Part shown: in pieces, positions 4,144-30,139 of the stretch | How positions within the stretch are numbered: the stretch's first letter is position 1 | Layout: every line of letters starts with the position of its first letter | NCBI RefSeq assembly: GCF_002954265.1 | Contig: NZ_PPSL01000004.1 | Span: 434,001 to 498,000, forward strand | Reading direction: 5' to 3' | Length of the DNA stretch: 64,000 bases | DNA from: Flavipsychrobacter stenotrophus | GTDB taxonomy: Bacteria; Bacteroidota; Bacteroidia; Chitinophagales; Chitinophagaceae | Notes under the pieces: generated by a model | Database searches by the model: none | Told to the model about the DNA's origin: nothing | Seen by the model: the letters and a program-made list of their open reading frames with translations, nothing else | Program-made: the position numbers and the translations under genes

Positions 4144-6084
4144 CTACAGAAACCTAAAATTCTTCATCATCAATCCAATATCTGTTGCCGGGGTATAGTG
4201 CTGGGCATACGCCAGATTTATCTGTAGCTTCACGTGGTCAGATGGTTCATACCCCGCCAGTATGTTGTAGGGTGGGAGAGCTCCCGGCCGCAACGCTGGC
4301 AATCTGTTGGTTGCTGTGCCCGGGGCATAACCTACCCACGTTTTACCACCGCTAAGCACACTAAATATGTTGGTGAACATAGTCCCCGGCTTCTTTACAA
4401 GGAAGAAAGTGAATGGAAAAAGGATCAGTAATAGCAGGGACATCACTATGTCTACCAGTCGTTTATTCCGCTGCATGGCGAAAGAGGATAGGTTAAAGCT
4501 TCGGTCAATTGTATACAGGTCTCCGGATGTATTGCTTGAATTACTTCCTACAAAGCTTTGACTACCATTAAGATGTATTTTATATTCATAGCCATCACCA
4601 CACTCCTGCATTTGCTTGAACACATCCAGATAGCTCAAACCATCCACACAAAAGATCACTTCATTTACACCCGTAGTATATAGCAGTTGCTTCATTTCGG
4701 GTAGTGCAGCCAATGCATTATCCCGTTCGCTCGTCGGACTAACTCTGCCCGAAAGTTCGGGTGCGTAGTGTACTTTCTGCAATATGTCGGCAGTCTGTTG
4801 GTAGGAGGTTTCATCTGCCACTATCACTGCGCGCTTTGGCAGCTTGTCGTAAGGAATGTATTTCAGGATGCCTAGACGATACAATACCTCGTGCAGTCCC
4901 AGTAATCCTACCGTACCTACGATGCCCGAGAACACTATGATCGCCCTCGAATACCTCAATTCAGCCGGAAGAAGGCCGAAATAAGCCAATATGATGATCG
5001 TACCCATTAACATGCCCCTGATTACCTTAAGCGGGCGGTAAGGGCTGTCGTAGGCCCCGTTAAAATACAAAGACACCAGCCACAGCAATGCGTAGACAGG
5101 GAAAGTGGCATAAACCGACGATGCGGGTATGGGAAATATGTTCTTTACCTCATTTACCCAGAATTGTTTTATGCCGTAAAGCGTACCTAGTAGTATTAAT
5201 GCGTCAAATAGAGGCATGCGCAGCACCTTAAGCGCTGTCTTCAGCGAACCAAGTACTGCTCGCAGTATAATGCCTATGTTGATAAACAGTATGAACAACC
5301 GAGCATCTTTGGCCGAATAATGCTTTTTCACAAACGTAACCAGCGCTTCATTAAAGATGCGGACATACGATAACGTCATCTTTTTGGTACTCTCTCCTTT
5401 GTAGTGGATCAGGTCTACCTCCGGGTAATAGATGTTCTCGAACCCGGCTTTTAGTATGCGGTAAGACAGATCCACATCCTCGCAATACATAAAGTAATCC
5501 TCGTCAAATGCACCACCGGCTATGTCCATGGCCGAGCGGCGTACCAGCATACAGCAGCCACTCAGTACTTCCACAGGGGCGGTTTCCCGCTCACCGATAT
5601 GCACCGCATAATACTTGTTGAAGTAAGGAGATTTTTTGAATAACTTATTGATTCCCGTAGTTTTGAAGATAGCTACCGAAAGCGAAGGGAAAGATTTTTT
5701 TCCATCCGGTGCAAAGTCCCCTTTACCATCAATAAGCCTTGGTCCCAGCGATCCTGCCTTAGGGTGGGCATCCATATAGGCCACCGTCTTCACCAGGAAA
5801 TCCTCCGGCATCACCGTGTCCGGATTCAGGAAAAGGATGTATTCACCCATAGCAATATCCACACCCTGGTTGTTGGCTTTGGAGAAACCCCTATTGTCTA
5901 TATTTTCTATAAGTGTAACAGAAGGGAACTTTTCGCGCACCATTGCGCAGCTGGTATCGGTAGAATTATTATCCACAACGACCACCTCAACAGCCATACC
6001 TTCAGCCGCACGCATTACAGAATGCAGGCATACCTCCAGAAAGTACTTTACATTGTAATTAACTATAATGACTGTTACTTTCAT
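4144..6084 (-). CDS. Family 2 glycosyltransferase fused to a WbaP-like membrane scaffold
   Basis: The 646-residue protein has a GT-A domain at about 1-235, with VTVIIVNYN at the start, the nucleotide-site VVVDNNSTD (35-43), the acidic LNPDT (87-91) and the CEDVDLSYR acceptor motif (201-209). This is a rhamnosyl-transferase-like GT2 of cell-surface polysaccharide synthesis. It is followed by four to five membrane spans (about 263-281, 291-307, 324-343, 355-373, 381-400), a soluble Rossmann-like part (about 415-510) and a further hydrophobic hairpin KRLVDIVMSLLLLIL (541-555). That second half has the layout of the N-terminal scaffold of polyprenyl-phosphate sugar-1-phosphate transferases (WbaP/PglC superfamily). 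The catalytic part is missing: only GGKTWVGY stands where such enzymes carry their conserved catalytic motifs. The GT2 assignment is firm; the scaffold assignment is inferred from layout. Confidence 0.85.
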   Translation of the reverse strand: MKVTVIIVNYNVKYFLEVCLHSVMRAAEGMAVEVVVVDNNSTDTSCAMVREKFPSVTLIENIDNRGFSKANNQGVDIAMGEYILFLNPDTVMPEDFLVKTVAYMDAHPKAGSLGPRLIDGKGDFAPDGKKSFPSLSVAIFKTTGINKLFKKSPYFNKYYAVHIGERETAPVEVLSGCCMLVRRSAMDIAGGAFDEDYFMYCEDVDLSYRILKAGFENIYYPEVDLIHYKGESTKKMTLSYVRIFNEALVTFVKKHYSAKDARLFILFINIGIILRAVLGSLKTALKVLRMPLFDALILLGTLYGIKQFWVNEVKNIFPIPASSVYATFPVYALLWLVSLYFNGAYDSPYRPLKVIRGMLMGTIIILAYFGLLPAELRYSRAIIVFSGIVGTVGLLGLHEVLYRLGILKYIPYDKLPKRAVIVADETSYQQTADILQKVHYAPELSGRVSPTSERDNALAALPEMKQLLYTTGVNEVIFCVDGLSYLDVFKQMQECGDGYEYKIHLNGSQSFVGSNSSNTSGDLYTIDRSFNLSSFAMQRNKRLVDIVMSLLLLILFPFTFFLVKKPGTMFTNIFSVLSGGKTWVGYAPGTATNRLPALRPGALPPYNILAGYEPSDHVKLQINLAYAQHYTPATDIGLMMKNFRFL

Positions 6085-6569: not shown

Positions 6570-8681
6570 ATGATGCAACTGTACCCGGCTACTGCCATTG
6601 AGAGTTTAGAGTTTAATAAAGTGTGTGATCTGCTGCTGCATAAATGCCGCACAGATGCTGCACGTGAAAGAGTGCAATCCATTCGTTTTCATGTACGTAT
6701 GGAGCATATGCAGAAAGAGTTACTTCAGGTCAATGAGTTCAAAATGGTACTGCAGACCGGCGACCATTTCCCCAATGATTTTACCCGAAACATCACCCGC
6801 GAACTGAAACTCCTACAGATAACCGGTGGGGTACTGACCGGCGAGCAACTCCTGTTCTGCAATCAGCTGGCGCTCAATATGAAGGACATATTGCAGTGGT
6901 TCAGAAAAAATAATGATCTGTTTCCCACCCTTGAGGCTATAAGTGACAAGGTGGTCTATGAGAAAAAGATAACCGAACTCATCACATCTGTTGTCGACGA
7001 GACCGGGGTAGTGAGGGATACTGCATCTAAAGATCTCATGTATATCCGTTCCGAACTGGGTAAGGCACGCCATGCCGCAAGACGCACCTTCGATGGTGTT
7101 TTGCGCAAACTGGGCAAGGCCGGTTACCTGGCCGATATATCTGAAAGTTTCTATAATGGTCGCCGCACGGCTGCCGTACTGGCCGAGTACAAGCGTATAG
7201 TGAAAGGTATCTTGCACGGCGAGAGCGACACCCAGAAAACCGTTTTCATAGAACCTGAAGAGACCATAGACCTCAACAACGAGATATTCTCCCTCGAACG
7301 CTCAGAACAAAAAGAGATACAACGCATATTGGTTCAGGCCACAAAAGACCTGTCCGAGTTCGGGCCGCAGCTCGAAGGTTACTATCACATTAGTGGGATT
7401 TACGATTTTATAAGAGCCAAGGCAAATCTGGCGGTTGATATGAATGCGCATATGCCGCGGCTTAGTCCGCATGCGGTGATACAGTTGGTCAAGGCATATC
7501 ACCCCCTCTTGTTGCTGCGCAACAAGCAGAGCGGCAAGCCAACAATCCCCCTCAATATCTCCCTCGATCGTAATAACCGCATCCTCATCATTAGCGGACC
7601 TAACGCCGGTGGTAAGACGGTATCTATGAAAACAGTAGGCCTCCTGCAACTGATGGTGCAGGCAGGTATGCTCATTCCGGCCGATGAAAATTCAGAAGTA
7701 GGCGTGTTCCGCCAGTTGATGGTGCAGATAGGGGATACACAAAGTATAGAACACGAACTAAGTACCTACAGCGCCCACCTGCAGGACATGAAATACTTCA
7801 TGGACTTCGCCAATGGCAAGACCTTATTTTTCATAGATGAACTCGGAAGTGGTTCAGATCCAAACCTTGGCGGTGCCTTTGCTGAAGCGATAGTTGAAGA
7901 CATGGCATCTAAAAATGCCCTAGGTATCATCACCACCCACTACCTCAACCTGAAGGTTATGGCCGGCAAAGTGAAAGGTATTTTCAATGGCGCCATGGCA
8001 TTTGACGAGGAAAAACTGGAACCATTGTACCAGCTGACCGTTGGCAAACCGGGTAGCTCTTACACCTTTGCTATTGCCCAGCGCAGCGGTTTATCGCCCA
8101 AAGTAATAGCCCGCGCCAAAGAACTCACCCAGCGCGAACACTTCAAACTCGACAAAATGCTCCTGCAGACCGAGCAGCAATCGGTACGACTGGGAGACAA
8201 AGAAAAGGAACTGGACAGGCTGCTGAAGATCAACGAACAACTGAAAAAGAACCTGGAGACCGTTACCGACAAAGAGAAGATAAAGCAGCAGCACGACATA
8301 CTGAACCTGCAAAACAAGATAAAGAAAGAAGAGCTGGAATACCTGCGCGACACCGAGCGCAAGTTCAAACAGATCATACAAGACTGGAAAAAAGCCGACA
8401 ACAAGCAGGAAGTGATCACAGCTGCCGAGAATGTACTCTTCCGTAAAAAGAACGTACAGACCAATGCCGCCGCCGCCAAAAAGGCCGACAAAGCCTACGA
8501 ACTAACCGGAGGCAAACCCCACATCGGCAACCTTGTCCGCAACAAAATAAACCACCAGGTCGGCATCCTCACCGAGTTCCGCGACAAAAAAGCCATCGTC
8601 CAGATTGGCAAACTACCTTTTACTGTGAATATTGATGAGTGGTTGGTGGTGAGGAAGAAGGCGGAAGGAAAGGAAAAATAG
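6570..8681 (+). CDS. mutS2: MutS2-family ATPase lacking the Smr domain
   Basis: A 703-residue MutS2-type protein with the core/clamp region at about 1-320, Walker A GPNAGGKT (343-350), Walker B FFIDELGSGSDP, the ST-motif region and a long Lys/Glu-rich coiled coil at about 520-620. MutS2 proteins bind branched DNA or collided ribosomes and usually end in a Smr nuclease/RNA-binding domain at roughly residues 700-780. Here the protein stops after a small beta-rich segment (VGILTEFRDKKAIVQIGKLPFTVNIDEW), and the following DNA encodes no Smr in any frame. The ATPase is complete, so this looks like a natural short form. Two adjacent ATGs (6570, 6573) are possible starts. The RADAR cassette begins 60 bp downstream. 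Confidence 0.93.
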   Translation: MMQLYPATAIESLEFNKVCDLLLHKCRTDAARERVQSIRFHVRMEHMQKELLQVNEFKMVLQTGDHFPNDFTRNITRELKLLQITGGVLTGEQLLFCNQLALNMKDILQWFRKNNDLFPTLEAISDKVVYEKKITELITSVVDETGVVRDTASKDLMYIRSELGKARHAARRTFDGVLRKLGKAGYLADISESFYNGRRTAAVLAEYKRIVKGILHGESDTQKTVFIEPEETIDLNNEIFSLERSEQKEIQRILVQATKDLSEFGPQLEGYYHISGIYDFIRAKANLAVDMNAHMPRLSPHAVIQLVKAYHPLLLLRNKQSGKPTIPLNISLDRNNRILIISGPNAGGKTVSMKTVGLLQLMVQAGMLIPADENSEVGVFRQLMVQIGDTQSIEHELSTYSAHLQDMKYFMDFANGKTLFFIDELGSGSDPNLGGAFAEAIVEDMASKNALGIITTHYLNLKVMAGKVKGIFNGAMAFDEEKLEPLYQLTVGKPGSSYTFAIAQRSGLSPKVIARAKELTQREHFKLDKMLLQTEQQSVRLGDKEKELDRLLKINEQLKKNLETVTDKEKIKQQHDILNLQNKIKKEELEYLRDTERKFKQIIQDWKKADNKQEVITAAENVLFRKKNVQTNAAAAKKADKAYELTGGKPHIGNLVRNKINHQVGILTEFRDKKAIVQIGKLPFTVNIDEWLVVRKKAEGKEK

Positions 8682-8741
8682 CCCAGTTTAATTAGCATTT
8701 GTAATTAGTTTATCTATATTTATGGATAAAACTATTATTTC

Positions 8742-10259
8742 ATGTCTATGAAGCAACACACGCTCACTATTGATTTAAATAATGATTACAGAATTAACAT
8801 CGATAACAACCTAAATTACTCTTTCTTTAAGGATGTATATATTAAGGCAAAAGAGTTGACCGACGATATTATTAAGAAAAATAAACAAAGCAGCGAAAGA
8901 AGCAAGTTAGGTGATTTTGACAAGGACGTCTTTTATAATAATGTAATAGCTTTCGTAGGGGATAGAGGTACGGGAAAGAGTTCAGCTATGACTTCTTTTG
9001 CGCGGGCATTAATATTGAAAAGTAATACTGAAAACACTATTTTTTTTAAAGGTGCTGAACAAATTGGAGAGACTGAATTTGTGTCTATTGAAACAATTGA
9101 CCCATCCCTTTTTGATCAGAGAGATAACTTATTGCAGATAATTATCTCTAAAATGTTTTCAAAATTTGAGAAGACACTAAGAGACACCAATAGGCAAATA
9201 GATACAGACAAGAAAAGAAATTTAATTAGACTATTTAATGATGTTTATGAGAATCTAAAAACAATAAACCATCCTAATGAATTTAAAGGTGAGGCCATAG
9301 ATGAGCTTTCTAAGCTAGCTTTAGGGTCAAACCTACGGGTAAAGTTCATGGAATTGGTAAGGTCTTTCAACAATTTTTTTGCAAACAATGACAGTAAAAA
9401 AAGCCATTTGATAATTTGCATAGATGACTTCGATTTGAATATTGCAGAGGCTTATGATATGTTGGAGGATGTTAGAAAATATTTGACAGTAGAAAATGTG
9501 ATAGTATTTATATCGTGTAAGATTGAGCAATTGTTGAATGATATCGAGGAGAAAATACTGAGCAAATATCAATATGTGATTAATTTCTCAAACTTGATTG
9601 AACAGCCCAAACAGTCTGGGGAAAAATACCTTGAAAAGGTAATTCCATCAGACCGAAGACTCTATCTCCCAGAATTGAAGAGATTTAACAAAAATAATAT
9701 CTTGGATATTGAAATCGTAGGTGATCCGATTAAGTATGCTGAAACTAGTATAGAAGCTTTTGTAATGGGATTGATACATAAAAAAAGCGGGTTATTTATC
9801 ATACCCAGTAACTATTATATACACCCAGCAACGCCCTATTCTCTACGTGCGTTTATAAATAGTTATCAATTGTATAATAGTTTGACATTTTCTTCGTCCT
9901 CACTGTTTATATTGAGCAAAAATCTATTAAAGGAGGCGACCTCTATAAAAAATGATTATATAACATATGATAGGAATGATAAAGAGTTATTAAAAGAAGA
10001 TGCAGTAACTTATCACAGTTTTTTAGAGGATTTAGACAATTTCAATTTAGATATTTTAAATAAAAATATAATATTTTTCCTACTTGATAATGACTTTATC
10101 GACGAAAATTTATCAGAAAATTCGTTTATAAATAGCATCACCTCCAATTTAAACAATCCCAAGAATATCTCTTTTGGTGATTTGATCAATATTTTGCGAA
10201 TTATTCAAATAAGTATAGATCCTAATCAAGAGAGTAGCTACATTTTCTTGTATTGTTAA
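8742..10259 (+). CDS. rdrA: RADAR ATPase RdrA, N-terminal part (frame interrupted)
   Basis: This 505-residue ORF is a P-loop NTPase. Walker A is GDRGTGKS at about 73-80, Walker B LIICIDDFD at about 223-231, and a VFISCK sensor-like strand lies near 255-260. The sequence is visibly more AT-rich than its neighbours. Together with the next two ORFs it matches RADAR, in which a roughly 900-residue ATPase (RdrA) works with an adenosine-deaminase-like protein (RdrB) against phage. The ORF ends in YIFLYC-stop. Adding one T to the T4 run at 10243-10246 joins it seamlessly to the next frame (YIFLVLLKVIF...), giving 889 residues, the normal RdrA length. So this is probably the first 501 residues of a frameshifted rdrA. 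Authentic two-part RdrA remains possible. Confidence 0.8.
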   Translation: MSMKQHTLTIDLNNDYRINIDNNLNYSFFKDVYIKAKELTDDIIKKNKQSSERSKLGDFDKDVFYNNVIAFVGDRGTGKSSAMTSFARALILKSNTENTIFFKGAEQIGETEFVSIETIDPSLFDQRDNLLQIIISKMFSKFEKTLRDTNRQIDTDKKRNLIRLFNDVYENLKTINHPNEFKGEAIDELSKLALGSNLRVKFMELVRSFNNFFANNDSKKSHLIICIDDFDLNIAEAYDMLEDVRKYLTVENVIVFISCKIEQLLNDIEEKILSKYQYVINFSNLIEQPKQSGEKYLEKVIPSDRRLYLPELKRFNKNNILDIEIVGDPIKYAETSIEAFVMGLIHKKSGLFIIPSNYYIHPATPYSLRAFINSYQLYNSLTFSSSSLFILSKNLLKEATSIKNDYITYDRNDKELLKEDAVTYHSFLEDLDNFNLDILNKNIIFFLLDNDFIDENLSENSFINSITSNLNNPKNISFGDLINILRIIQISIDPNQESSYIFLYC

Positions 10260-11410
10260 AGGTTATATTTAATATGAAAATTGCTGGACTAATTTATGAT
10301 GAGGTAGATATTAGAGCAATTTTGGGCAATAGTTATATTGTTGAGAATGGTCATTATTTCCCGTCGTTAGAAAATAATGCAGTCAGGCGTGATATTTTTG
10401 AATTTAACTATAAATCCTTATGCGAAAATCTTGAAAAAGGTGTTATTAATGAGGAGGATTTTTTATGGTTATTCTCTTTTGTCTCGATTTTGGGGCGACG
10501 TAGTCCATTATTTATTAGGGTAATTCCTAATGAACAAAGAAATCAACTAGGATATCGGACAGATAGCATCGCAGTTTATGATCGTTTTGATTATGGTTCA
10601 AATGTTGGACAATACACTTCTGCTACATTTTCATTTATAGACTTTTTAATTAATTCATTGTTTATCGAGGAGAGGTACGAACGAATTTCTAGGCGACTTC
10701 AAAAAGCTAAAAAGAATAACGGTTTATATAAGAAAATTTTGGATTGGAGTAATATAAAAAGTAACAGAATCATGCTTTCCAATATGGATTTCGTCTCGGA
10801 ATTGATTGAAGAAATATCTTTATTTGGTATAAACTATAGGGAAAAATTGCCGGACAATTATTCAGCCGTTTTGAAAAAATACTTAATAGAAGGATCAGTG
10901 AAGGCAATAGAAAAAATGAAATTAAAATATAGTTATTTAGATATTAGTAGTGATTTTATTATCGAACATCCAATAATAAAATACTGGGTAAGCATTGACA
11001 ATCAAGTTAGAATTGACGATTTGTTGGATGCCGTATATCTTAGCCAGAATGGTAACAATGACGGTAATCTTAAAAAGAATGATGATGCCCCCACTACTCC
11101 TATTATATATAAAGTAGCGAAACGAAGGCCACCGCTAAAAAAAGAAGCTAGAACAAGGGATAGGTTGAATAAGACTATTGCTAGTACGATTAAGGTCCTC
11201 AGTACGATTTTAGAAAATCATAGGACAGCTAAAATTGTTTTAAGTAGACCGGAAATGGATAAAATCAGAAATGAGTACAATAAGTATTCAGAACGTAGAC
11301 CAGAAATTCATCTTAATATGAAAGAAGCGTACTTCAAATTTCAAAAGACCAAAAACAAAAAGTACTTATTGGGAATAATCGACTACTTGAATGAAATGAT
11401 AAATGGATAA
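10253..11410 (+). CDS. rdrA: RADAR ATPase RdrA, C-terminal part (second frame)
   Basis: The second frame encodes about 385 residues with no P-loop, no membrane segment and no domain I recognise on its own. It is helix-rich, has a basic linker near KVAKRRPPLKKEARTRDR (about residue 285-300), and ends ...DYLNEMING. The frame is open back to 10238, before any good start. TTG 10253 or ATG 10274 could initiate, but the residues before them (FLVLLKVIF) look like protein and continue the helical C-terminal region expected of RdrA. It therefore most likely represents the RdrA C-terminal regulatory half, separated by a one-base deletion. The rdrB start overlaps its end by 8 bp, which supports tight co-translation. 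Confidence 0.72.
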   Translation: MLKVIFNMKIAGLIYDEVDIRAILGNSYIVENGHYFPSLENNAVRRDIFEFNYKSLCENLEKGVINEEDFLWLFSFVSILGRRSPLFIRVIPNEQRNQLGYRTDSIAVYDRFDYGSNVGQYTSATFSFIDFLINSLFIEERYERISRRLQKAKKNNGLYKKILDWSNIKSNRIMLSNMDFVSELIEEISLFGINYREKLPDNYSAVLKKYLIEGSVKAIEKMKLKYSYLDISSDFIIEHPIIKYWVSIDNQVRIDDLLDAVYLSQNGNNDGNLKKNDDAPTTPIIYKVAKRRPPLKKEARTRDRLNKTIASTIKVLSTILENHRTAKIVLSRPEMDKIRNEYNKYSERRPEIHLNMKEAYFKFQKTKNKKYLLGIIDYLNEMING

Positions 11411-14051
11411 CCTTATCAACATAATTAGTACTCTATTTAGAAAGGTTAATCCAGAAGACTTATTCTTTTACGGGGGCGCTGTAGATGAAAAAAGTATTCT
11501 CAATTATTTGCTACGGCAACATAAAGAGTATATTGGCAATCACTCCGAAGATGACTGGAATAACATAATAAGCCTTGTTGGGCAAAAGTGGTTGATGACT
11601 CGTGATTTAGATGAGACTGCAAATAGGTATAACTTATTGTTACATTTCACTAAAGATATTTTAATTGAAGATCACGATCAACCAGGTGTTCAATTTAAGC
11701 ACTTGCTTCGATGGCGAATGTTGTCTTATGAGATAGGTGAAGATTTGTTGACCTGTTCTACTATGGCATATAGAGATGTCGTTTCGAGGCGGCATCGAGA
11801 TTTTTTCGCTTGGAAGCCAACTATAGCATCAGATAATTCAAGACTCAAGGCAATTCTAAGTGAAGGCGTAGCGGAAAATCATTTTCATTTAAAAGGTTCT
11901 GCGCCTGTCTTTGAAATCTCATGGATATCATTAATGAACCAACCCAACGAAAGGAGTGAGGAGTGGGCGGCGTTTACAAAGAAAGGAAGATTGAATGAGG
12001 CCACACATGCTGTGTTCAACTACCAAAATGTATCACTTGAAAGTTTGGTGAAATTTGCAGCGGTATTAAGGCTGCAACTCTTTGCCATGACCAGTGCTCC
12101 TTCAGTTGCAATTGATCCGTTGATACAAAACATTGATAAGCAGAATCTCGGTTCAAAATTCGACGATGTGTTTCTATTACTGCCAATTATGGAAAGTGAG
12201 AAAAGTGCTTTTACTGCAAGTAATATGTGCCTTAAGTTTCCTTACAGAGATAATAAGTATACTATAGACTATGCGATCCCTTCAAATATACACGCCTCAA
12301 ATTTATCTGCCAATGTAATATTGACCGGTGAACGAATACTGCTATATAATTGTTTTAGAAATATTTTCGGAAATGGAGAAAACCACGAGGTTATTGCTCA
12401 TAATCTATATATCTACTTATTGATAAAATCAAAACTTAGAGAGGAACTTGTTCAACTCAACAATAAGGTTGGTTTTGGAAATTTCTTGAGTTATCAGGAT
12501 AGGAAAGAAGTATTCATAAAGTCGGGTAGTATATATGAGGTAGCATTTTACAGTATGGCGGTCGATGATACTAGTAAGAACAATCGTTTACTTTCTTTCG
12601 AGACGCGTATTGCACCTAAGAATAATGCTAACAATTTATTGAAGTCTATTATTGTAACTGACAAATTATCTGCTTATCAGTACTTTGATAATGTCACAGA
12701 TAAGCTATCTAATTCATTGAGTGTAATTACTGGTACTTATGTAAAGCCCGAACCATCTAATCATCATACTATTCATTTCATTAAGCATAATCCAGATGAA
12801 AGGTATAGACATGACATTAGAGACTTGATTCTTACTGTTATTCCTCGAAACAATGTACTTAGGCAAAATGTTAAAAGAGAGGCAATTGCTATTCAACGAT
12901 TACGTGAGTTTGTGACAAAAAGATCAGAAAGAATATGGGGAATAGATGCTGCGTCCTCAGAGTTTCAGGCCAGACCTGAGGTGTTTGCCCAGGCTTTCAG
13001 ATACCTTAAAGGTCATCAATTATCTGGCAGAAATAATCATCTTAAGAACGAACTTGGTATAAGGAAATTGGGTGCTACTTATCATGTAGGAGAAGACTTT
13101 TTCGATATTATTGATGGTTTACGAGCTATAGATGAAGTACTTATTTATCTCGATTTTCAACAAGGTGACAGAATAGGGCATGCCTTGGCTATGGGTATAT
13201 CTGCTGAACAGTATTTTAGATTCAAAGGCAAGACGCTTGCCATTTCTAAGCAAGATTATTTAGATAATATTGTTTGGGTGATATTTAAGTCTATGAAGTT
13301 TGGCATAAAGGAGTGTTCGAACGAGGTATTGAAACTTAAGATCGAATTTCATAGGTTGTTCAATGAGATCTACCTTAATAATTTACCAACAGGCTCAAAT
13401 GTTTCATTTACACAGCTAGATTATCATGATGCATGGTTACTGAGAGGTGATGATCCAGAGCGATATTTGAACGATTGGGAAACTGCCGATAGATCACGTC
13501 AGAATTTGACTTATTGGGATCGGTGCGGCTTGAATTGTTCTATCTCCATCCTTGATACTGCTAGGGAGAACAGAAATGCTAGATTGCTTTACCATATGTA
13601 TCATTTCAACGCTAATGTCAAAAATGCGGGTAGCCTGATCGAAGAGGTAAAGATATCTCAAGAGTACATCCGACTGGTTGACAAGATTCAGCATGAATAT
13701 CGTCACTTCTTTAGCAAGAAGGGTATTGCAATTGAGTGTAATCCCACATCCAATTATTTGATAAGTACGTTCAAAAGATATGCAGATCATCCAATAAAGA
13801 CATTTTACAATTTAGGTCTCACTTACGATCCCCAAGAGAATAAAAACTGCCCGCAGATAATGGTATCAATTAACACTGATGATCAGGGTATTTTTTCTAC
13901 AAGTCTCGAAAATGAGTATGCTTTATTGGCGTTAGGTTTAGAAAAAGAAACTAATGCAGATGGCACTGCCAAGTATAGCCCAGCAATGATATATGACTGG
14001 TTAGATAGAATTAGAAAAATGGGCCTTGAAATGAGCTTCCAAAATAAGTAA
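11403..14051 (+). CDS. rdrB: RADAR adenosine-deaminase-like effector RdrB
   Basis: An 882-residue protein with the metal-dependent adenosine deaminase active site spread over a long chain. It has ENHFHLKGS with H160 and H162, HVGED with H561 and E564, DRIGH with H593, ECNPTSN, and INTDD with D826 and D827. These correspond to the HxH, HxxE, GH and DD residues of adenosine deaminases, so the site looks intact. The insertions and the length of over 800 residues are those of RdrB, whose known homologues form large shells and convert adenosine to inosine in RNA or nucleotides on phage infection. It overlaps the upstream frame by 8 bp and is equally AT-rich. No third accessory membrane gene of known RADAR variants follows. 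Confidence 0.88.
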   Translation: MDNLINIISTLFRKVNPEDLFFYGGAVDEKSILNYLLRQHKEYIGNHSEDDWNNIISLVGQKWLMTRDLDETANRYNLLLHFTKDILIEDHDQPGVQFKHLLRWRMLSYEIGEDLLTCSTMAYRDVVSRRHRDFFAWKPTIASDNSRLKAILSEGVAENHFHLKGSAPVFEISWISLMNQPNERSEEWAAFTKKGRLNEATHAVFNYQNVSLESLVKFAAVLRLQLFAMTSAPSVAIDPLIQNIDKQNLGSKFDDVFLLLPIMESEKSAFTASNMCLKFPYRDNKYTIDYAIPSNIHASNLSANVILTGERILLYNCFRNIFGNGENHEVIAHNLYIYLLIKSKLREELVQLNNKVGFGNFLSYQDRKEVFIKSGSIYEVAFYSMAVDDTSKNNRLLSFETRIAPKNNANNLLKSIIVTDKLSAYQYFDNVTDKLSNSLSVITGTYVKPEPSNHHTIHFIKHNPDERYRHDIRDLILTVIPRNNVLRQNVKREAIAIQRLREFVTKRSERIWGIDAASSEFQARPEVFAQAFRYLKGHQLSGRNNHLKNELGIRKLGATYHVGEDFFDIIDGLRAIDEVLIYLDFQQGDRIGHALAMGISAEQYFRFKGKTLAISKQDYLDNIVWVIFKSMKFGIKECSNEVLKLKIEFHRLFNEIYLNNLPTGSNVSFTQLDYHDAWLLRGDDPERYLNDWETADRSRQNLTYWDRCGLNCSISILDTARENRNARLLYHMYHFNANVKNAGSLIEEVKISQEYIRLVDKIQHEYRHFFSKKGIAIECNPTSNYLISTFKRYADHPIKTFYNLGLTYDPQENKNCPQIMVSINTDDQGIFSTSLENEYALLALGLEKETNADGTAKYSPAMIYDWLDRIRKMGLEMSFQNK

Positions 14052-14093
14052 ATTCATTTGATTACTTTATATAACAAAACACCACAACCCAAA

Positions 14094-14451
14094 ATGAAAA
14101 ACCTCCTCCTCCCTCTGCCTCCTCACCACACTCACCGACACCCGCCTCCATGCCCAAACCCTTATAGGCGGCAAGCACTGGTATCGCGTAACCAGCGATT
14201 CGGGTAGGGTGGTGATACCGGCCAACTGTGTTGTTACAGCTATTGGCGTTAATTACGAGAGTAAGCGTTCTTTTCCCGAGCGCATATTTATTGACCAACT
14301 ATCCTATACCCTCAATTTCGATGGTGGTATTCAGACATTCGGCTTTACCGGTGAGATCTTCAGCGGCAACAAGCCTCTCGATGTATACCTGGGCTCAAGT
14401 AAGGGCGCGCCTTTGAATAAGGGTATTATGGTCGTTACTTACTATAATTGA
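14094..14451 (+). pseudogene. Small secreted protein with frameshift in the signal peptide
   Basis: ATG 14094 opens MKNLLL, but the frame soon turns into a Pro/His-rich string and stops. From about 14112 the protein continues in the next frame (LCLLTTLTDTRLHAQTLIGGKHWYRV...) to 14451. Removing one C from the CCC at 14111-14113 gives a normal 118-residue secreted protein with a signal peptide ending at HAQ. The mature part (VVIPANCVVTAIGVN..., DQLSYTLNFDGG) has no motif I know. The CTC/CCT-rich tract is prone to slippage, so phase variation, decay and sequence error are all possible. It lies 42 bp after rdrB but shows no sign of belonging to that system. Confidence 0.6.
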
Positions 14452-14465
14452 TAGTTCAACTCCCA

Positions 14466-14978
14466 TTATTTCCTGAACACCCATACAGGAAATGGTGCTA
14501 AAGAATCATTAATAGCGGGTTGGCCATTAAACTTGCAATAGACAAGCTCATAGTAACATTGACATGTTTTGCTGCCGTTTTCATAATGCCGGTATTCCAT
14601 TTCTATACTGTCGAACGCTACGCCTTTCCTTTCCAGGTAAAACTTGTGTATGCCTACATCAGCGGTTTTAAAGATCAGGTCTCTTGAAGCAAATATGTGC
14701 TGAAACTTATAGGGCTCAGGATAGGGTGCATAGGCGAAGTCACCAATATAATATTTAGACCCCGCATAGTAGTACACCAGTGCCACAGAGTCAGATACTT
14801 TGGTAGTATCCGTATTGTCAACATAATAGTCATTGTTATTGCTATCCACTATTACAAAGCAAAATGGCGACGGCATAATACCCGGTATAGGGTCTTCGTA
14901 TATGTCGGGAAATTTTTTACAGCCGGCTACTGCATAGAGCAGGTAAAACAATAGTGCGGCAATAGAAGCTTTTTTCAT
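14466..14978 (-). CDS. Hypothetical lipoprotein
   Basis: A 170-residue protein with the lipoprotein signal MKKASIAALLFYLLYAVAGC, lipidated Cys at residue 20. The mature part carries a Pro-rich stretch (DPIPGIMPSPF), then beta-type segments (SVALVYYYAGSKYYIGDF) and several Cys near the end (CQCYYELVYC). No known domain is recognised. It would be anchored at the periplasmic or outer-membrane surface. It is convergent with the frameshifted gene at 14094-14451. Confidence 0.7.
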   Translation of the reverse strand: MKKASIAALLFYLLYAVAGCKKFPDIYEDPIPGIMPSPFCFVIVDSNNNDYYVDNTDTTKVSDSVALVYYYAGSKYYIGDFAYAPYPEPYKFQHIFASRDLIFKTADVGIHKFYLERKGVAFDSIEMEYRHYENGSKTCQCYYELVYCKFNGQPAINDSLAPFPVWVFRK

Positions 14979-15067
14979 TTGGTAGTGTATATCATCACCA
15001 AGGTATATACTTTTTTGTAAAGCGGCAACGGCTCGAAATACATTCTGCCACTTTGAATCAGATATGA

Positions 15068-15568
15068 CTAGTGTAGTCCATACAACTCCTTTAGTCGCTC
15101 AAGGTCTGTGTCTGTTATTTTAAGGAAATAAGCCACCTGCCACTGCTGTGTTTTCGTTGCTTTTTTGTTCAGGTCTTGTTCCCACGGCGGGTATACCCTA
15201 AATCCACGTTTGCCATCTTTGCCATTGGCCGAAAATACACCATGTTCCACCAGTGCCGTCACTGGAAAAACAAACTGTCCCGATAGCTGATCTTTGCGCA
15301 CATCAATCACCACCAGGTCTATGCCATCGGTCCTATCAAACGGAGCCGTAATGCCCTGCTCGTTTCTCTTCCATACAGTAACAAAGAGGCCGGGTTTGGT
15401 GGGTGTAATTTTGGCTTCACGGTATATTACACATTTCCCATTCAGGGTAAACCTGCAACCATTATAGGCTGCGCTCTCTTTGTCGGGTTGCACGTCTGTT
15501 GCCACCCAACCACTTTTATTATAAATGGCAGTTTGTACAGACCTTGGGCCGGTGATTTGATTGTTCAT
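15068..15568 (-). CDS. MepB family protein
   Basis: A 166-residue soluble protein matching the MepB family: AKITPTKPGLFVTVWKR at about 72-88, the acidic strand DGIDLVVIDV, GQFVFPVTALVEHG, and the hallmark GKRGFRVYPPW near 134-144 followed by QQWQVAYF. MepB proteins are small and widespread; the name comes from the Staphylococcus mepRAB locus and their biochemical role is unsettled. No multidrug pump or MarR-type regulator lies nearby, so the context does not clarify it. It is likely transcribed alone or after the exported protein at 15643-16194. Confidence 0.85.
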   Translation of the reverse strand: MNNQITGPRSVQTAIYNKSGWVATDVQPDKESAAYNGCRFTLNGKCVIYREAKITPTKPGLFVTVWKRNEQGITAPFDRTDGIDLVVIDVRKDQLSGQFVFPVTALVEHGVFSANGKDGKRGFRVYPPWEQDLNKKATKTQQWQVAYFLKITDTDLERLKELYGLH

Positions 15569-15588
15569 AGACTTTGCAATTTACAACA

Positions 15589-15619
15589 ATGCCGCTACCA
15601 GGCTAGCTGGTAACGGCAT
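15589..15619. other. Hairpin between the exported protein and mepB-like genes
   Basis: An interrupted inverted repeat, ATGCCG-ct-ACCAG / CTGGT-aa-CGGCAT, encloses a short GCTAG loop between two - strand genes. It lacks a T run on either side, so it is not a standard terminator. It may be a processing or stability hairpin in the 3' end of the upstream transcript. Confidence 0.4.
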
Positions 15620-15642
15620 CAGATAAAAAAGTTAATTGGAAA

Positions 15643-16194
15643 CTAAGCGCCTACTCTAAAGCAATAACCTATCAGAGCTGTTGTGCTACTTGCACCCATT
15701 ATAGATATGTTTGGCCTGTTTACGAGGAAGCAATACTCACCATTTTCAAGCTGATCTTTGCATGATACTGCGTAAACACCATCAGAAACTTTCTTGAACG
15801 TCAGTTTTACTTTGGTAAGTTCTACAGTTTTGTCTTTGCCCATGCTCATTTCAGCAACCAATATCTGGCGGTTTTTCTTAGTCTGTTCAAATTTGAACAA
15901 TTCAACCACGGTTTCAGGGTCAATACCTGGTTCTATCTTTACTACATATGTTTCGCTGGTGCTGCCCGCATGTACTGTTGCCGAGGTCTTTCCGTTAGCT
16001 ACAATGTTTACTTCAGAGTGGCCACCCATGTTGGTATGCAATACCGATGAAAGGTCTGTCTTGTCAAGATCAGCAAGCGCATTGCTCTTGTCTACAAACA
16101 TTACCTTGTTCTTAAATTCGGGCGCAGGAATGTTTTGCGCATAAGAATTGAATACAATTGCACCAAAGGCAATTAAAAGTGATAGTTTTTTCAT
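15643..16194 (-). CDS. Exported hypothetical protein
   Basis: A 183-residue protein with a clear Sec signal peptide (MKKLSLLIAFGAIVFNSYAQ, cleavage after AQ). The mature part has repeated strand-like segments (GKTSATVHAGSTSETYVVKIEPG, VELTKVKLTFKKVSDGVYAVSC) and ends in a hydrophobic segment. No family is recognised. It probably resides in the periplasm or is surface-attached. The next gene on the same strand (YjbR-like) ends 47 bp upstream of its start. Confidence 0.7.
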   Translation of the reverse strand: MKKLSLLIAFGAIVFNSYAQNIPAPEFKNKVMFVDKSNALADLDKTDLSSVLHTNMGGHSEVNIVANGKTSATVHAGSTSETYVVKIEPGIDPETVVELFKFEQTKKNRQILVAEMSMGKDKTVELTKVKLTFKKVSDGVYAVSCKDQLENGEYCFLVNRPNISIMGASSTTALIGYCFRVGA

Positions 16195-16241
16195 TTTTGT
16201 TTTTTGCTCAAAAGTAATCGATTATGTCCATTTTTAAACTA

Positions 16242-16601
16242 TCAGTCAATGGTATTTTCTTTCCGTGCCAATATAGGCTGCGCCAGTTTTTTAGGTGCTA
16301 CTGTACAATAGGCGGTCTCCAGTGCATCCTGTAGCATCTCCTTTTTTATCAGTGCGAGGTTGATGAGTGTCCACCCTTGCTTGCCCCATTTGTTGGGCAC
16401 CGGGTATATCACATCCCTATCAAAAGAGCAGAATGCCGACTGGTCTAGCTCCGAAAATTTCAGGCATGCCCGGTTCTCCACCATATTCAGCGTAGCAAAT
16501 ATCTTCTTCTTTACCCTGAAGGAAGTCTGCTCAAAATGAGGTTGCTCCTCCGCTTCAGGTAGCGATAAGGCTATATTGCGAAATGTGTGAATAGACGTCA
16601 T
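16242..16601 (-). CDS. MmcQ/YjbR family protein
   Basis: A 119-residue cytoplasmic protein with the YjbR/MmcQ fold signature: LSLPEAEEQPHFEQTSFRV at the start, KKIFATLN, a central CLKF strand, and KWGKQGWTLINLAL followed by a C-terminal helix. The family has a double-wing DNA-binding-like fold but no established function. The gene follows the DUF3667 gene on the same strand. The ATG at 16601 is followed directly by family-typical sequence. Confidence 0.88.
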   Translation of the reverse strand: MTSIHTFRNIALSLPEAEEQPHFEQTSFRVKKKIFATLNMVENRACLKFSELDQSAFCSFDRDVIYPVPNKWGKQGWTLINLALIKKEMLQDALETAYCTVAPKKLAQPILARKENTID

Positions 16602-16607
16602 AATACA

Positions 16608-17510
16608 CTAGTGTTTAAAATGAACATGTAGATATCTGACAATAAAGTAGTAGACCAAAAACACAATAAAGAGCATAAATGCATAAGAAATGATTATGAT
16701 CACATCATAAAGAATGGCTCTTCCCGTTTTTATCCCGTAAACTTGTTTTAGTGCCAGAACGGAATAAAGAAGTGGTGCAATTGTAAAGATGTACCCAATT
16801 ACCCTATTGAAGACATTATCACTATCATATAGCGTAAAGATGAGTGATAAGAAATAAAAAGTTTGAACGTGGAATGAAAATATGGTATGGTGCACGATGG
16901 TCAGTTCCTTTCGCTTACTAAATAATAGTTTCAATACAATAGCCAGAAGAGGGATCATAAAGAAAAAGAATTTGGGAATTGTGTGTTCAATATTTTCCCA
17001 TGTCTCGTCTCTCGTTTTTAGCCTTTCCGCCCTTTCTTCAGGGGTAAGTCTGGCTATTTTAGGTGCCTTAATGCCAAAGGCTGCTGCTACTGCCGCCTTT
17101 CCTGCAGAATCACTCTTTTCAAGTTGTAACTGCTGTGCAGCATCCGCAGACTTACGAGAAGAAGTCCACGTGTCCGGAGCCGAAAATGTATAAACAATGA
17201 AAAAGAAAACGAATGTTACGAATAAATACAACGATATAGGTGACAGGTAGCGGGTACGTTGTTTATTCCAATAAGCAATGGTTAACTTTCCCGGGCTTAC
17301 AATTAGTGTTTTCAGAGTTTGCCAAAACTTAGAGTCGTAGTGAATATAGTGACCAATGAAGTGCGTGGTGAGCGCCCACAAGGTATCACTATGTAAACGG
17401 GTCTCCTGTCCGCACTGGTAGCAGTAGTTGCCGGTGGTAGTGCTGCCACAGTTAGGGCAAATTTTGTTTTCTTCCGTATGGTGAGATTTATCTTCGGTGT
17501 TATAAGACAT
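16608..17510 (-). CDS. DUF3667 zinc-ribbon membrane protein
   Basis: About 300 residues. The N-terminal zinc ribbon CPNCGSTTTGNYCYQCGQ supplies four Cys ligands. It is followed by the DUF3667 core (YDSKFWQTLKTLIVSPGKL, YWNKQRTRYLSPISLYLFVTF) and four to five membrane spans. DUF3667 proteins are frequent in Bacteroidota and have no assigned role. I chose ATG 17510 (MSYNTEDKSHH); the longer reading starts at a TTG at 17555 and adds residues with no family support. It lies 6 bp upstream of the YjbR-like gene on the same strand, so the two form an operon. Confidence 0.85.
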   Translation of the reverse strand: MSYNTEDKSHHTEENKICPNCGSTTTGNYCYQCGQETRLHSDTLWALTTHFIGHYIHYDSKFWQTLKTLIVSPGKLTIAYWNKQRTRYLSPISLYLFVTFVFFFIVYTFSAPDTWTSSRKSADAAQQLQLEKSDSAGKAAVAAAFGIKAPKIARLTPEERAERLKTRDETWENIEHTIPKFFFFMIPLLAIVLKLLFSKRKELTIVHHTIFSFHVQTFYFLSLIFTLYDSDNVFNRVIGYIFTIAPLLYSVLALKQVYGIKTGRAILYDVIIIISYAFMLFIVFLVYYFIVRYLHVHFKH

Positions 17511-17602
17511 TAATGTGTAGCTATTGGCAGAGCAAGATAATAATTCTTTCAACAACAGCGTTGATATAGCCTTCCATATTACACCGGATTCTGCTACATT
17601 TA

Positions 17603-18412
17603 ATGAACAAAATGGACTTTCTTTCCTTACTACATACCGATCTTGACGAACTCCGCGAACTACAGCCTGTAGACTGGGCAGATATCATTGCCCCAACGTT
17701 GCGCAATATAAATTCATCATTCTGCATGGTGTATAAGGCTGTGATAGATGGTAAGATGGTTGGTACGGGAGCAGTTATTTATCATGGCCATACCGCCTGG
17801 CTGGCAACGATCATTGTGCATCCCGACCATAGAAACAAAGGCTATGGAAAGCGCATAACCCAATATTTAATAGATAGTATTGACCGCGTAAGATACCCAA
17901 CTATCTTGCTTGATGCTACCCACTTTGGTTATCTCGTCTACAAAAGCCTGGGCTTTGAAACCATAACGCATCATGTACACTTTGATATTACCAGTCCTTA
18001 CCCTGTAGTTGCATCATCGCCCCATATGAGACCATTTGAACAAAATGACCTTAAGCAGATACTCGCTCTTGACCGTGTAGCGACAGGGGAGGATAGAACA
18101 GCAACATTACTGACCAAAGTAAGCACAGCAATTGTATTTGCAGATGGCGGACGTGTAGGTGGCTTTTACATGCCGGATCTTATGAAGGGCCTGCTCATAG
18201 CAGACAATCCGGTAGCTGGTATCGAACTAATGAAGATACGCCTGCAGCATCAACCCAATTGTATGCTGCCAGAAGAAAACAATGCTGCTCTAGACTTTTT
18301 TATCGATGCCGGCTACACCCAATCACGTACATCTACCCGTATGAGGCTGGGCCCGGCTGTGGAGTGGCAGCCTGAATTTATATATAATGTGGCCAGTGGG
18401 GCGATTGGGTAG
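17603..18412 (+). CDS. GNAT N-acetyltransferase with C-terminal second domain
   Basis: A 269-residue protein. The first half is a GNAT domain with acetyl-CoA loop HPDHRNKGYGKRI at about 72-84 and preceding strand AWLATIIV. The second half (about 140-269) looks like the C-terminal acetyltransferase-like domain found in YitH/YitI-type GNATs (GGRVGGFYMPDLMKGLLIADNPVAGIELM, then FFIDAGYTQSRTSTRMRLG). It would acetylate a small amine or amino acid. It is divergent from the DUF3667 gene, with a shared 90-bp promoter region. Confidence 0.88.
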   Translation: MNKMDFLSLLHTDLDELRELQPVDWADIIAPTLRNINSSFCMVYKAVIDGKMVGTGAVIYHGHTAWLATIIVHPDHRNKGYGKRITQYLIDSIDRVRYPTILLDATHFGYLVYKSLGFETITHHVHFDITSPYPVVASSPHMRPFEQNDLKQILALDRVATGEDRTATLLTKVSTAIVFADGGRVGGFYMPDLMKGLLIADNPVAGIELMKIRLQHQPNCMLPEENNAALDFFIDAGYTQSRTSTRMRLGPAVEWQPEFIYNVASGAIG

Positions 18413-18443
18413 GGGATTAGCAGCATTCCTGTTAATAATCGCA

Positions 18444-20852
18444 TTATTGTCCACTGCCCTTACATGACCATACATATGGGTGGTTATCTATGATAATTCC
18501 TCTTCTGTTTATTATTCTATATTCTTTACTTTGTTTTACCAATGCGTCACCATACTTAAATTCTTGCGCACTATCAAAGGTGCAATGAATTATTTCCCTT
18601 CCATCGGCAGTAACATAGCCCCACTTGCCTTTTTTAGAAACTGGCTGTAATCCTTCCCTATACTCACCAACTGCATCGTATTGGTAGGGCACTATCAATG
18701 TTCCCTTGTTACTGATCATACCCCACTTGCCATTTTTCAATACCCATGACAGGCCATTCTTTTTATAGTCTATTTCGTCATAGATACAAGGTATTATTTC
18801 CTCGGCACTGAAATTAATTATTCCTTGTTTTTTTCCCTTATAAACCTTCGCAAAGCCATCAAACAAGTCATAGTTGCTGTTTTTCTATCTATGCGCGTAT
18901 AGTTACTGTAAATTATTGTTCCACTTTTGAAATTAAATATAGTCCAGGAGGTATCCTTGCTAAAAGCAATAAGTTGATCTCCTATATATCCAAGTACTAT
19001 ATTCAAATGGCAATACAGGATATCCTTTGTCGTTTATATAGCCCCATTTACCATTTTTTAATGCTGGTGCATATTTGTTGTGGATATGATAGACTTCTTC
19101 ATAGTGATAGGGAATAACAAGCTCCAGTTGGTTATCAATAAAGCCCCATTTTTTGCCATTTTTCACTGCCGCCATACCGCTCGAAAAATCCTGACAATCG
19201 TCATATAAACACGGGATTATTATTTTCCCGGTAGTGTCTACATAACCATATCTTTTATTTCTGGCCACCTTCACTACACCATCTTCTATATCGTCGGCAT
19301 AATCATAAATGCAGGGTATAGTTGCTCTTCCTAATGTATCTATATAGCCATATTTGTTATTTCTTTTTACTTTTGCAAAGCCACTTCTGAACACACTAAT
19401 GTTATCATAGGGTATGCCGCCAATTATTTGTCCATTTTCTTTTATAATATCCCACTTTCCAGCTTTCTTTGCTAATCCGGTTGTTCCATTAAAATTAACG
19501 GCTGTGTCGTACTTGCACTCTGCTATCAGCACACCGTCAGTATTAATAAATCCCCATTTTTTATCTTTTATTACAATTGCCACGTCTTCATTTTCCAGTT
19601 CATCGCCATATCTGTTGCCAGGTATTATTGCGTCATATATGCAGGGTATTATTTCCACTCCTTCATCATTGAGCATTCCATTCTTTTTATTTCGGGTTAC
19701 TATCATGTCAAATGGGTTATAAAAGACCTTGCTATGGTAACTAAGCCCGGCATCATATAAATTAGATGAGATTCTTTTGCCGCTACTATCCCACAATTCC
19801 CATTTGTCATCCACCCGCGCTTTCAATATTCTGTCTGTATAAAAATCTATCTCTTGGTATTTGCAAGGTATTACTTCTTTCAGTGAGGCATTTACCATCC
19901 CAATAAGTTCATTTTTTCTGATTATGGCGAAATTATTATAGCGTTTTACTACAAGGCTATCATAGATCTCACTCACCACCTTTCCTTTTTTATCAATAAG
20001 CATACTGCGGTGATTTATCTTTGCTGTTGCAAGACCATTACTGAATTCGTCAAGTTGACTATATATGATTGGTATTACTTCATGATCAGTTGAGTCTACA
20101 TATCCCCATAGGCTGTCTTTTTGTACTAATGAGATACCATCTTCAAAAAGGCCTATTGATTTATACTTGTTTTTTGCAAAATACCTACCATTTCTATCTA
20201 TAAGATTTTTGTTCCCATCTTTGACCACAAAGGCGTATCCGTTATAAAATACAGTGGCTTTGTCAAATTGGAATGGCAACACAATTTTTCCTTTCAGATC
20301 AACAAAGCCCCATTTGTCTTTTAAGTAAACACAAGCGATACCCCCGTAGCAGCCATTTACATCATCATACTTACAAGGCACAATTTCTTTTCCGTTTGTA
20401 TCCGCTAGGCCCCACAAATTATTTCTACATACTGGTGCGGTGTAAGCTATAAAGCGTTTTACTACGTCATATTTGTATTGAGATACCTGCTTTCCTGTAG
20501 CGTCAAGGTACATCCATTTCTCGCCTTCATTTACAAGCACCAAGTTGTTGGTGTATATATATACCTGATCGTAGATTAATGGAATTTTTATTTTGCCATT
20601 TTTGTCGACACATCCACACTTATAGTCACCCACAGAGACCGTTGCAAGTCCAAATTCAAACTCTCCTGCCGATTGATATTTACACGGGATAACTGTTTCG
20701 TTGCGACTATTTTTGTATCCCCAAAGCTTGAATTTTTTATACCGGTGAAGCGCACCTTGTTCTGTTTGGTTTGGTAGGGTAGAGGTTGTTTGCGCAAGGG
20801 TGCTATAAGAGCAGAGGCCAGTTACAACTATGAGCAGATCAATAAATCTCAT
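18444..20852 (-). pseudogene. WG-repeat secreted protein with two compensating frameshifts
   Basis: The signal peptide MRFIDLLIVVTGLCSYSTLAQ starts at ATG 20852; an upstream extension to 20924 would cross the rpsG terminator and is rejected. It is followed by more than a dozen WG repeats of the form LWGY/KWGFI(D)..G..(V/I)IPCKYD. The frame stops at 18960. About 45 residues continue in another frame (18840-19000; VLGYIGDQLIAFSKD), and the original frame resumes at about 18866 and runs to 18444 with more WG repeats. Two opposite one-base shifts, one of them at an A5 run near 18884, explain this. WG proteins are surface or periplasmic repeat proteins of unclear function in Bacteroidota. The real length would be about 800 residues. 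Confidence 0.75.
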
Positions 20853-20907
20853 GATAATAGGTATATAGTGAATACCTAAGTTACAAAATCTCCCGCACCC
20901 ACACAGC

Positions 20908-20940
20908 AAAAAGCCTTCCGACATAATCGAAAGGCTTTTT
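20908..20940 (-). terminator. Terminator after rpsG
   Basis: A perfect 10-bp stem AAAAAGCCTT (20908-20917) / AAGGCTTTTT (20931-20940) around a 13-base loop, with A/T runs on both sides so it can work in both directions. It separates rpsL-rpsG from the WG-repeat gene. It also shows that the WG gene's true start is the ATG at 20852, downstream of the hairpin. Confidence 0.85.
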
Positions 20941-29106: not shown

Positions 29107-29592
29107 TTGTTTTTCATCTCTCTGATCGCCTGCGTTTGAAACGCGGATGCAACGGTAGGCGTTTGTAACGCCCATACGCACCATAACATTTGCAGACTCC
29201 GTAGAATAGCTCCCATTATTTAGAATGAATTCATTTTTTGCGTCGCGAGAAAAAACATATCCACAAAATTCGTCGTCTGTAACCCTTGCCCACAAGGCGT
29301 ATCAGCCGACGCAGACGTAACTTTTGTGAATATCTTTATTTGCCCGAATCAATCTGCCGTATTAATTTACACCCGAATTATAAATTTGTCATCCTGAACT
29401 CAAGTTTACACTGAGTTTACCAAAGTGAAGGACGACGCGCTCTTTGACATTATGAACCCTATGAAAACACAATCACTCCACACAAATCGCACTGTAGGGG
29501 CTTAACATTTTCCGCCCCTGCACCAACCAATGAAAATCACTCATCTAATTAGAATCTGTAGAATCTGTGATTCAGACAAAAAGCAGAAGAAA
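29107..29592. other. Gene-free zone with small palindromes
   Basis: No gene is supported. The stretch holds palindromic words such as GCGTTTGTAACGC near 29158 and a GTCATCCTGAACT ... GTGAAGGACG pair near 29389-29434 that I recognise as common Bacteroidota intergenic repeat vocabulary. It leads into the repeat blocks at 29593-30131. Confidence 0.4.
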
Positions 29593-29742
29593 TGTAGAAG
29601 AAATGTAGAAGAAAGTGGAAGAAAAGTGGAAGAAAGTGGAAGTTTTTGGAAATTTGTTAAAACACACTGAAACGCAATACCATAAGGTACTTCAGCCAAA
29701 ACACACCCAACAAAACTTCCGCAAGCAAGAAAAAACTTCCAC
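29593..29742. repeat. Repeat block A: GTGGAAG array with inverted CTTCC copies
   Basis: The left part is a tandem array of GTAGAAGAAA / GTGGAAGAAA units (29593-29645). It is followed by TTTGTTAAAA (29653-29662), a TTCAGCCAAAA word (29691-29701), and two copies of AAAACTTCC (29712-29720, 29732-29740; the second extends to CCAC), the inverse of the left units. Block B at 29939-30131 has the same order with a changed base in both arms. An ORF crosses it but its content follows the repeats. Confidence 0.6.
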
Positions 29743-29764
29743 TGGCAAAAACTGGTTGTTCGTA

Positions 29765-29787
29765 GAGACGCAAGATTTTGCGTCTCC
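29765..29787. repeat. GAGACGCAA palindrome
   Basis: GAGACGCAA-gattt-TTGCGTCTC is a near-perfect 9-bp inverted repeat. The AGAGACGCAA...TTGCGTCTC type of palindrome is frequent between genes in this phylum. It has no T run, so it is unlikely to be a terminator. Confidence 0.5.
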
Positions 29788-29938
29788 TCAGCGGCAGGGT
29801 AAAAACAACATGTCTTACTGGTCGAAGCGTCCGCTTCGTCCTTATTATTGGAAGCGTCTCGCTTCCGAAAATGTCAGCAAATAACTACACGTATTATCTA
29901 ACCAACATGTAAACCTATTAAGGGACTACTCACCTAAA

Positions 29939-30131: not shown

Positions 30132-30139
30132 CAAAAACT

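Follow-up and report, generated by a model that had tools for sequence, protein, structure and literature searches.

A divergent RADAR operon with an interrupted rdrA gene in Flavipsychrobacter stenotrophus

Introduction

Does the genome of Flavipsychrobacter stenotrophus encode a genuine RADAR anti-phage system, and what does it mean that the ATPase gene of this system is interrupted? RADAR pairs an ATPase, RdrA, with an adenosine deaminase, RdrB; according to PMC9994260, heptamers of RdrA bind to a dodecamer of RdrB, and infection leads to the conversion of ATP and dATP by deamination to ITP and dITP. The locus in question lies in a 64,000-nucleotide stretch of DNA (contig NZ_PPSL01000004.1, positions 434,001 to 498,000; hereafter the window, whose own coordinates are used throughout) and was picked out from its sequence, in what we call the original prediction, as a RADAR locus made up of a P-loop frame, a second frame and a frame for an 882-residue protein. 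Open reading frames (ORFs) were found exactly where that prediction had placed them. The analysis described below makes it close to certain that the locus is a genuine, if distant, copy of RADAR; this copy as sequenced most likely cannot make a normal RdrA.

The three ORFs are located head to tail on the forward strand, at 8742-10259, 10253-11410 and 11403-14051, and encode, in this order, the ATPase, its C-terminal lobe and the deaminase, which puts rdrA and rdrB next to each other, as expected of RADAR. They overlap by 7 bases (first and second) and 8 bases (second and third) and are AT-rich, both as predicted: their GC content is 0.306, 0.311 and 0.364, respectively, versus 0.486 for the adjacent mutS2, and their third-position GC content is 0.29-0.34 versus 0.59.

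The deaminase RdrB

The 882-residue product of the third ORF (11403-14051) has RdrB as its top profile in both PADLOC (3.1e-31) and NCBIfam (4.4e-52, 178 bits, residues 74-877), and a phmmer search matched it to the solved E. coli RdrB (8fnv/8fnw) at 1.3e-24, whereas no ordinary adenosine deaminase did better than 0.065. The sole Pfam family to exceed its cut-off was A_deaminase (35.8 bits versus 27); the housekeeping adenosine/AMP deaminase profile TIGR01430 scored 43.1 bits against a cut-off of 216.55, with its best stretch at residues 765-843. All the deaminase motifs listed in the original prediction are present: HxH (H160/H162), HxxE (H561/E564), GH (G592/H593) and DD (D826/D827). All of these motif residues are invariant in the 13 aligned RdrBs. 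Five of them, H160, H162, H561, E564 and H593, were also mapped to E. coli numbering and align with H152, H154, H498, E501 and H530, which in E. coli RdrB bind zinc or take part in catalysis (PMC9994260).

An AlphaFold model of the protein, built from a 12-row alignment, had a pLDDT of 71.5 and a pTM of 0.73. A Foldseek search with this model gave eight matches at E<=0.001, all of them RdrB chains (the best one, 8hr7, at 1.7e-26 with a target TM of 0.77), and the best ordinary deaminase came at 1.9e-3; one row of the input alignment was an E. coli-type sequence (locus L017), which may steer the model towards the RdrB fold. The RdrB-specific extensions to the deaminase core are present in the model as well. 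Thus, sequence and predicted fold agree in identifying the protein as an intact RdrB. Adenosine deaminase folds that convert ATP to ITP are also found in Cad1, the CARF-fused adenosine deaminase of type III CRISPR systems (PMC11645235), and the window protein showed a weak PADLOC match to CARF_ADA (8.8e-7, residues 770-843 only); however, RdrB chains top the fold search, whereas Cad1 appears at an E-value of 0.38. The original prediction had the deaminase generate inosine, of which the assignment to the deaminase family stands, whereas the products given in PMC9994260 are ITP and dITP.

The ATPase RdrA

The first ORF (8742-10259, 505 aa) covers the AAA+ ATPase core and the start of the C-terminal lobe of RdrA and matches the RdrA profiles of NCBIfam (5.7e-23, 81 bits) and PADLOC (5.9e-13), so that RdrA and RdrB, rather than KAP/STAND ATPases or ordinary amidohydrolases, are the best matches for the locus. 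Mapping to E. coli RdrA places on this piece the predicted Walker A motif GDRGTGKS (with K79), Walker B (D228/D229) and the sensor-2 arginine (R369). A single-sequence search with the first ORF gave no match to the solved RdrA; a profile built from six one-ORF relatives matched the E. coli protein at 5.8e-15. The predicted structure of a one-piece relative, the RdrA of locus L023, had 20 structure matches at E<=0.001, all to RdrA chains; past the ATPase this model is weak (pLDDT 62.5, pTM 0.42), and its quality in the C-terminal part falls short of demonstrating the fold of the lobe. The sensor-1 aspartate (E. coli D253) is replaced by K260 in the window. This column holds Asn, Lys or Glu in L023, L021, L058, L024, L002 and L016 and Asp in the other six of the 12 aligned rows; the change thus looks like a branch difference without bearing on the family definition, and Lys, Asn or Glu in the RdrA rows nearest to the window suggests a different detail of the ATPase.

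Compared with E. coli RADAR, the locus has the same ATPase-deaminase gene order, Walker A and B motifs, sensor-2 arginine, zinc histidine tetrad, catalytic glutamate and, in the structure model, overall RdrB fold. Our yardstick was L017, which is nearly identical to the E. coli system with solved structures (RdrA 8fnt/8hr7, RdrB 8fnv). The window RdrB is only ~21% identical to that of L017, in which a 20-base spacer separates rdrA from rdrB, whereas in the window the last rdrA ORF overlaps rdrB by 8 bases. Judging from the sequences, the departures from characterized RADAR appear to be the interruption of rdrA, the altered sensor-1 residue and an unconserved shell interface, with nothing else found; at this interface, the E. 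coli three-fold residues Glu595-597 align to Asn660, Val667 and Ser668 and are unconserved in most of the 13 rows. The window proteins score below the NCBIfam equivalog cut-offs of 600 bits (RdrA) and 800 bits (RdrB), with 81 and 178 bits, but E. coli-type L017 misses them too (135 and 116 bits), so these cut-offs are no argument against membership.

The interruption of rdrA

The second ORF (10253-11410) encodes 385 aa from a TTG at 10253 or 378 aa from an ATG at 10274. Its frame is open for 390 codons, whereas none of 2000 first-order Markov shuffles exceeded 147, and this opening is no chance effect. On its own, the second piece matched no family in PADLOC or NCBIfam, and BLAST found nothing in common between it and the RdrA proteins of L002 and L003, which at first suggested an unrelated gene; the C-termini of RdrA from closer relatives ruled this out. 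Because tblastn matched the second ORF to the C-terminal RdrA regions of L022 (2.3e-13), L023 (5.5e-11) and L058 (2.4e-5) and a fragment alignment showed it to be colinear with the C-terminal RdrA of relatives, we assign it to the C-terminal alpha-helical lobe of RdrA. Residues encoded upstream of its first ATG still align to the relatives. A MAFFT alignment that mixed whole and partial proteins put this ORF at the wrong end and was discarded. The C-terminal part of RdrA has been proposed as the infection sensor (PMC9994260).

The two rdrA pieces are in different frames, and one protein can therefore be made from them only via a frame change in 10238-10259, the 22 bases bounded by the last upstream stop of the second frame and the stop codon that ends the first frame, as seen in a three-frame translation. 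Thus, of the joined 889-residue ATPase of the original prediction, the assignment of both pieces to RdrA was borne out; a single ORF was not, and instead of one protein of ~900 aa there are two ORFs with the lobe sequence on the second. No X XXY YYZ heptamer occurs in 10200-10300, and no stable RNA structure was found after the junction, where 10239-10339 folds no better than shuffled sequences (z = -0.06).

Relatives and split rdrA genes in other loci

In a 20-row RdrB tree, which omits L016 (partial RdrB), L018, L019, L029 and L062, the window falls into an eight-row clade (support 100/100) together with Aureibacter (L003) and six other genomes; L030 and L031 have very long branches in this tree and their placement is unsure. 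The nearest sequences to the window RdrB, at 43-45% identity, are those of L021, L022, L023, L055, L056 and L058; identity to L003, which is on plasmid pAT1 of Aureibacter tunicatorum, is 36%. In these branch relatives, too, rdrA is directly upstream of rdrB. The named relatives L002 and L003 fit the Bacteroidota origin given in the original prediction. L003 has, after rdrB, an additional gene annotated as SLATT-domain (10732-11439; Pfam match below cut-off), which is missing from the window, and a VanZ-family gene follows rdrB in L031 (Cetobacterium; 8762-9193). Directly upstream of RADAR, L022 (10710-13240) and L023 (10504-13035) share a gene pair coding for a GIY-YIG / Schlafen-group-3 helicase / S24-peptidase-like protein, with weak PADLOC matches (PDC-S14, 7.8e-11), and a small MazG-like protein.

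Of the 395 genomes sampled from the phylum, 10 contained RADAR of one branch or another (profile A1, E<=1e-20), and the window protein as a query found only its own genome among 298 sampled from the order and none of the other 297. Profile A8 at 1e-100 detected 3/397 genomes in the family of G491, 3/395 in the class and 3/299 in the genus of G491, and at 1e-60 it detected 1/7 in the genus of G841 and 4/69 in the genus of G589; these samples overlap and use unlike thresholds. The window locus was unmatched in 50,697 phage records; five matches in IMG/VR were either E. coli-type (L017-L019) or 26-30% identical (L016, L020).

Unlike the window, L003 has its rdrA in one ORF, and L021, L023 and L058 encode one-piece RdrA proteins of 802-823 aa. 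The gene is, however, split at other places in two further members of the branch, into 317 + 486 aa by a frame change in L022 and into 325 + 507 aa by an in-frame stop followed by an ATG in L056, compared with 505 + 385 aa in the window. Splits were thus seen in three of the seven judgeable loci of the clade; L055, with an N stretch in its rdrA, was left out of the counts, as were L062, a remnant outside the tree, and L029, whose RdrB is at a contig end with no rdrA seen upstream. The three splits are on separate tree branches, but the sister of L056 is the unjudged L055. In L022 and L056 the sensor-2 arginine falls on the second piece and is thereby cut off from the P-loop core, whereas the first piece of the window still contains Walker A, Walker B and sensor 2.

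Outside the clade, none of the 14 loci judged (L002, L016-L020, L025-L028, L030, L031, L063 and L064; by ORF length only) is split. L024 (G628) is doubtful: at 7938-8600 its rdrA tail past residue 718 of 794 is unmatched, with an additional open frame ahead of rdrB, so that this rdrA may be split or out of frame near its end. The one-sided Fisher test of clade versus outside gives 0.026 with L024 set aside and 0.077 with L024 counted as split or, without L018 and L019, which are 91-98% identical to L017, 0.036 and 0.10, respectively. Since the contrast fades with L024 and the grouping was drawn after the data had been seen, the evidence for splitting as a special trait of this branch is weak.

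Breakage of RADAR reaches beyond rdrA. In L062 (G1733, 4827-5677), rdrA residues 1-89 stand beside rdrB residues 683-875 (L023 numbering), with the rest gone and one internal stop. E. coli 1303 (L065, 4407-6806) has an E. coli-type RADAR in which rdrB is annotated in two pieces and rdrA is in one; it is among the four of 5426 E. coli genomes with a near RADAR match, in all four of which rdrA is one ORF. The splits in the branch of the window are most likely independent disabling mutations. No paper on split rdrA turned up in the literature searched, which left out most subscription journals.

Explanations for the interruption

We consider it probable, at about 0.6, that the rdrA of this copy was recently disabled by mutation. 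A divergent-branch rdrA-rdrB operon would have arrived by horizontal acquisition; by analogy with the characterized system, its RdrA ATPase ring would dock on the RdrB deaminase shell and infection would turn ATP and dATP into ITP and dITP, blocking phage replication. The frame change in the C-terminal lobe, the proposed sensor, would then be a recent disabling mutation or, less likely, an assembly error and, because rdrA is interrupted in this lobe, the operon as sequenced would be impaired or silent. Recent disabling is favoured because the sisters carry one-piece genes, the junction has no signature of a programmed shift, and breakage recurs in the branch (L022, L056, L062). Several points weigh against it. 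The second piece has not decayed, since its frame is open throughout and similarity to the relatives persists at its C-terminal end, and it could be made separately, since its ATG comes 14 bases after the stop of the first piece. Keeping rdrB intact next to a broken rdrA might carry a cost, given that overexpression of RdrB without phage was toxic (PMC9994260), but this weighs little because, as described there, the cells in the liquid toxicity assay also carried rdrA. The interruption might also be an error of sequencing or assembly, with rdrA really continuous in an ordinary intact RADAR: only one change of frame is involved, the DNA there is AT-rich, and the genome is an unverified draft of 21 contigs. 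We regard this as unlikely, although it deserves to be kept in mind, as long ORFs, including one of 2052 codons, occur in the 64-kb window (although this is no systematic census of broken genes, of which 14080-14451 may be an example), and split or stopped rdrA genes are found in two other genomes, one of which, G841, is a single contig.

It is also conceivable that coupled translation yields two distinct proteins, one with the motor and one with the C-terminal lobe, which come together as a working RdrA. The excess of splits in this branch would fit such an arrangement, as would an ATG at 2, 3 or, in the window, 14 bases past the first stop in the three split loci, the fact that both parts stay open and like their relatives, and cuts at nearly the same linker in L022 and L056. 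However, the excess weakens if L024 is taken as split and stems from groups chosen after the fact; the cuts are at two different places (after 317/325 and at 505) on separate tree branches, L022 is placed among one-piece sisters and, with the sensor-2 arginine of L022 and L056 on the second piece, the AAA+ domain itself is cut. Taken together, these points make a working two-piece RdrA rather improbable. Programmed frameshifting, which would yield a short ATPase and a full-length RdrA from one gene, could draw on the short overlap (22 bases) of two frames that both resemble the relatives, and three X XXY YYZ heptamers, found by sequence irrespective of frame, are near the junction of L022. The window junction has neither heptamer nor stable downstream structure, the split in L056 is a stop and not a shift, and the sisters carry a plain single ORF, all of which makes this mechanism very improbable indeed. 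Recent disabling of rdrA thus remains our preferred explanation.

Genomic context and probable acquisition

The locus is located between mutS2 (6570-8681, forward strand; NCBIfam TIGR01069, 585 bits versus a cut-off of 400) and rpsG, with a set of unrelated small genes after rdrB. The predicted absence of accessory membrane genes was upheld in the vicinity: mutS2 is on the left, and a Pfam scan of the eight ORFs in 14469-20924 found no match of the SLATT kind. The same eight ORFs had no PADLOC match and hence gave no sign of a defence island. Just 3' of rdrB, 14080-14451 resembles a small broken gene on visual inspection and includes an 80-codon ORF (14209-14451) without a clean start, and the mutS2-rpsG interval also contains genes for two WG-repeat proteins.

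In the closest congener, G677 (L044), mutS2 is 97% identical and the DNA is 88.8% identical up to window position 8679; past this point G677 is unmatched until rpsG near 20895, save one YjbR-like gene and repeat sequence. In G675, mutS2 and rpsG are only ~1.8 kb apart. No RADAR DNA was present in seven congener regions (from 11 genomes with mutS2), with both ends available in G677 and G675; the other five either stopped short of rpsG or carried different genes downstream of mutS2. Since G677 and G675 differ here and RADAR is absent from both, the gap (8682-20924) is a variable site, seemingly a place of gene turnover, and RADAR is probably an arrival. The AT-rich composition and low third-position GC content, the variable gap and the absence of the operon from the other 297 genomes of the order make horizontal acquisition likely. 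A search for the marks of an inserted element, either terminal repeats or a duplicated target site, gave no clear flanking direct repeat. Elsewhere in the window, 29579-30139 contains clustered minisatellites of 10-21 bases, with related sequence just after mutS2 in G677 (L044 3501-4624).

Implications

The locus confirms a divergent branch of RADAR whose proteins fall below the NCBI cut-offs, and RADAR is for this reason probably under-counted in the branch; in Aureibacter L003, both RADAR proteins are annotated merely as hypothetical proteins. In our estimate it is improbable that RdrA has been divided repeatedly in RADAR into an ATPase and a C-terminal sensor lobe that are separate proteins but continue to cooperate; if true, the motor and the putative sensor of phage would be modules produced as two proteins. 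An interrupted rdrA beside an intact rdrB raises the question of whether RdrB tolerates the loss of the sensor lobe or RdrA acts in two pieces, and either answer would bear on what triggers RADAR.

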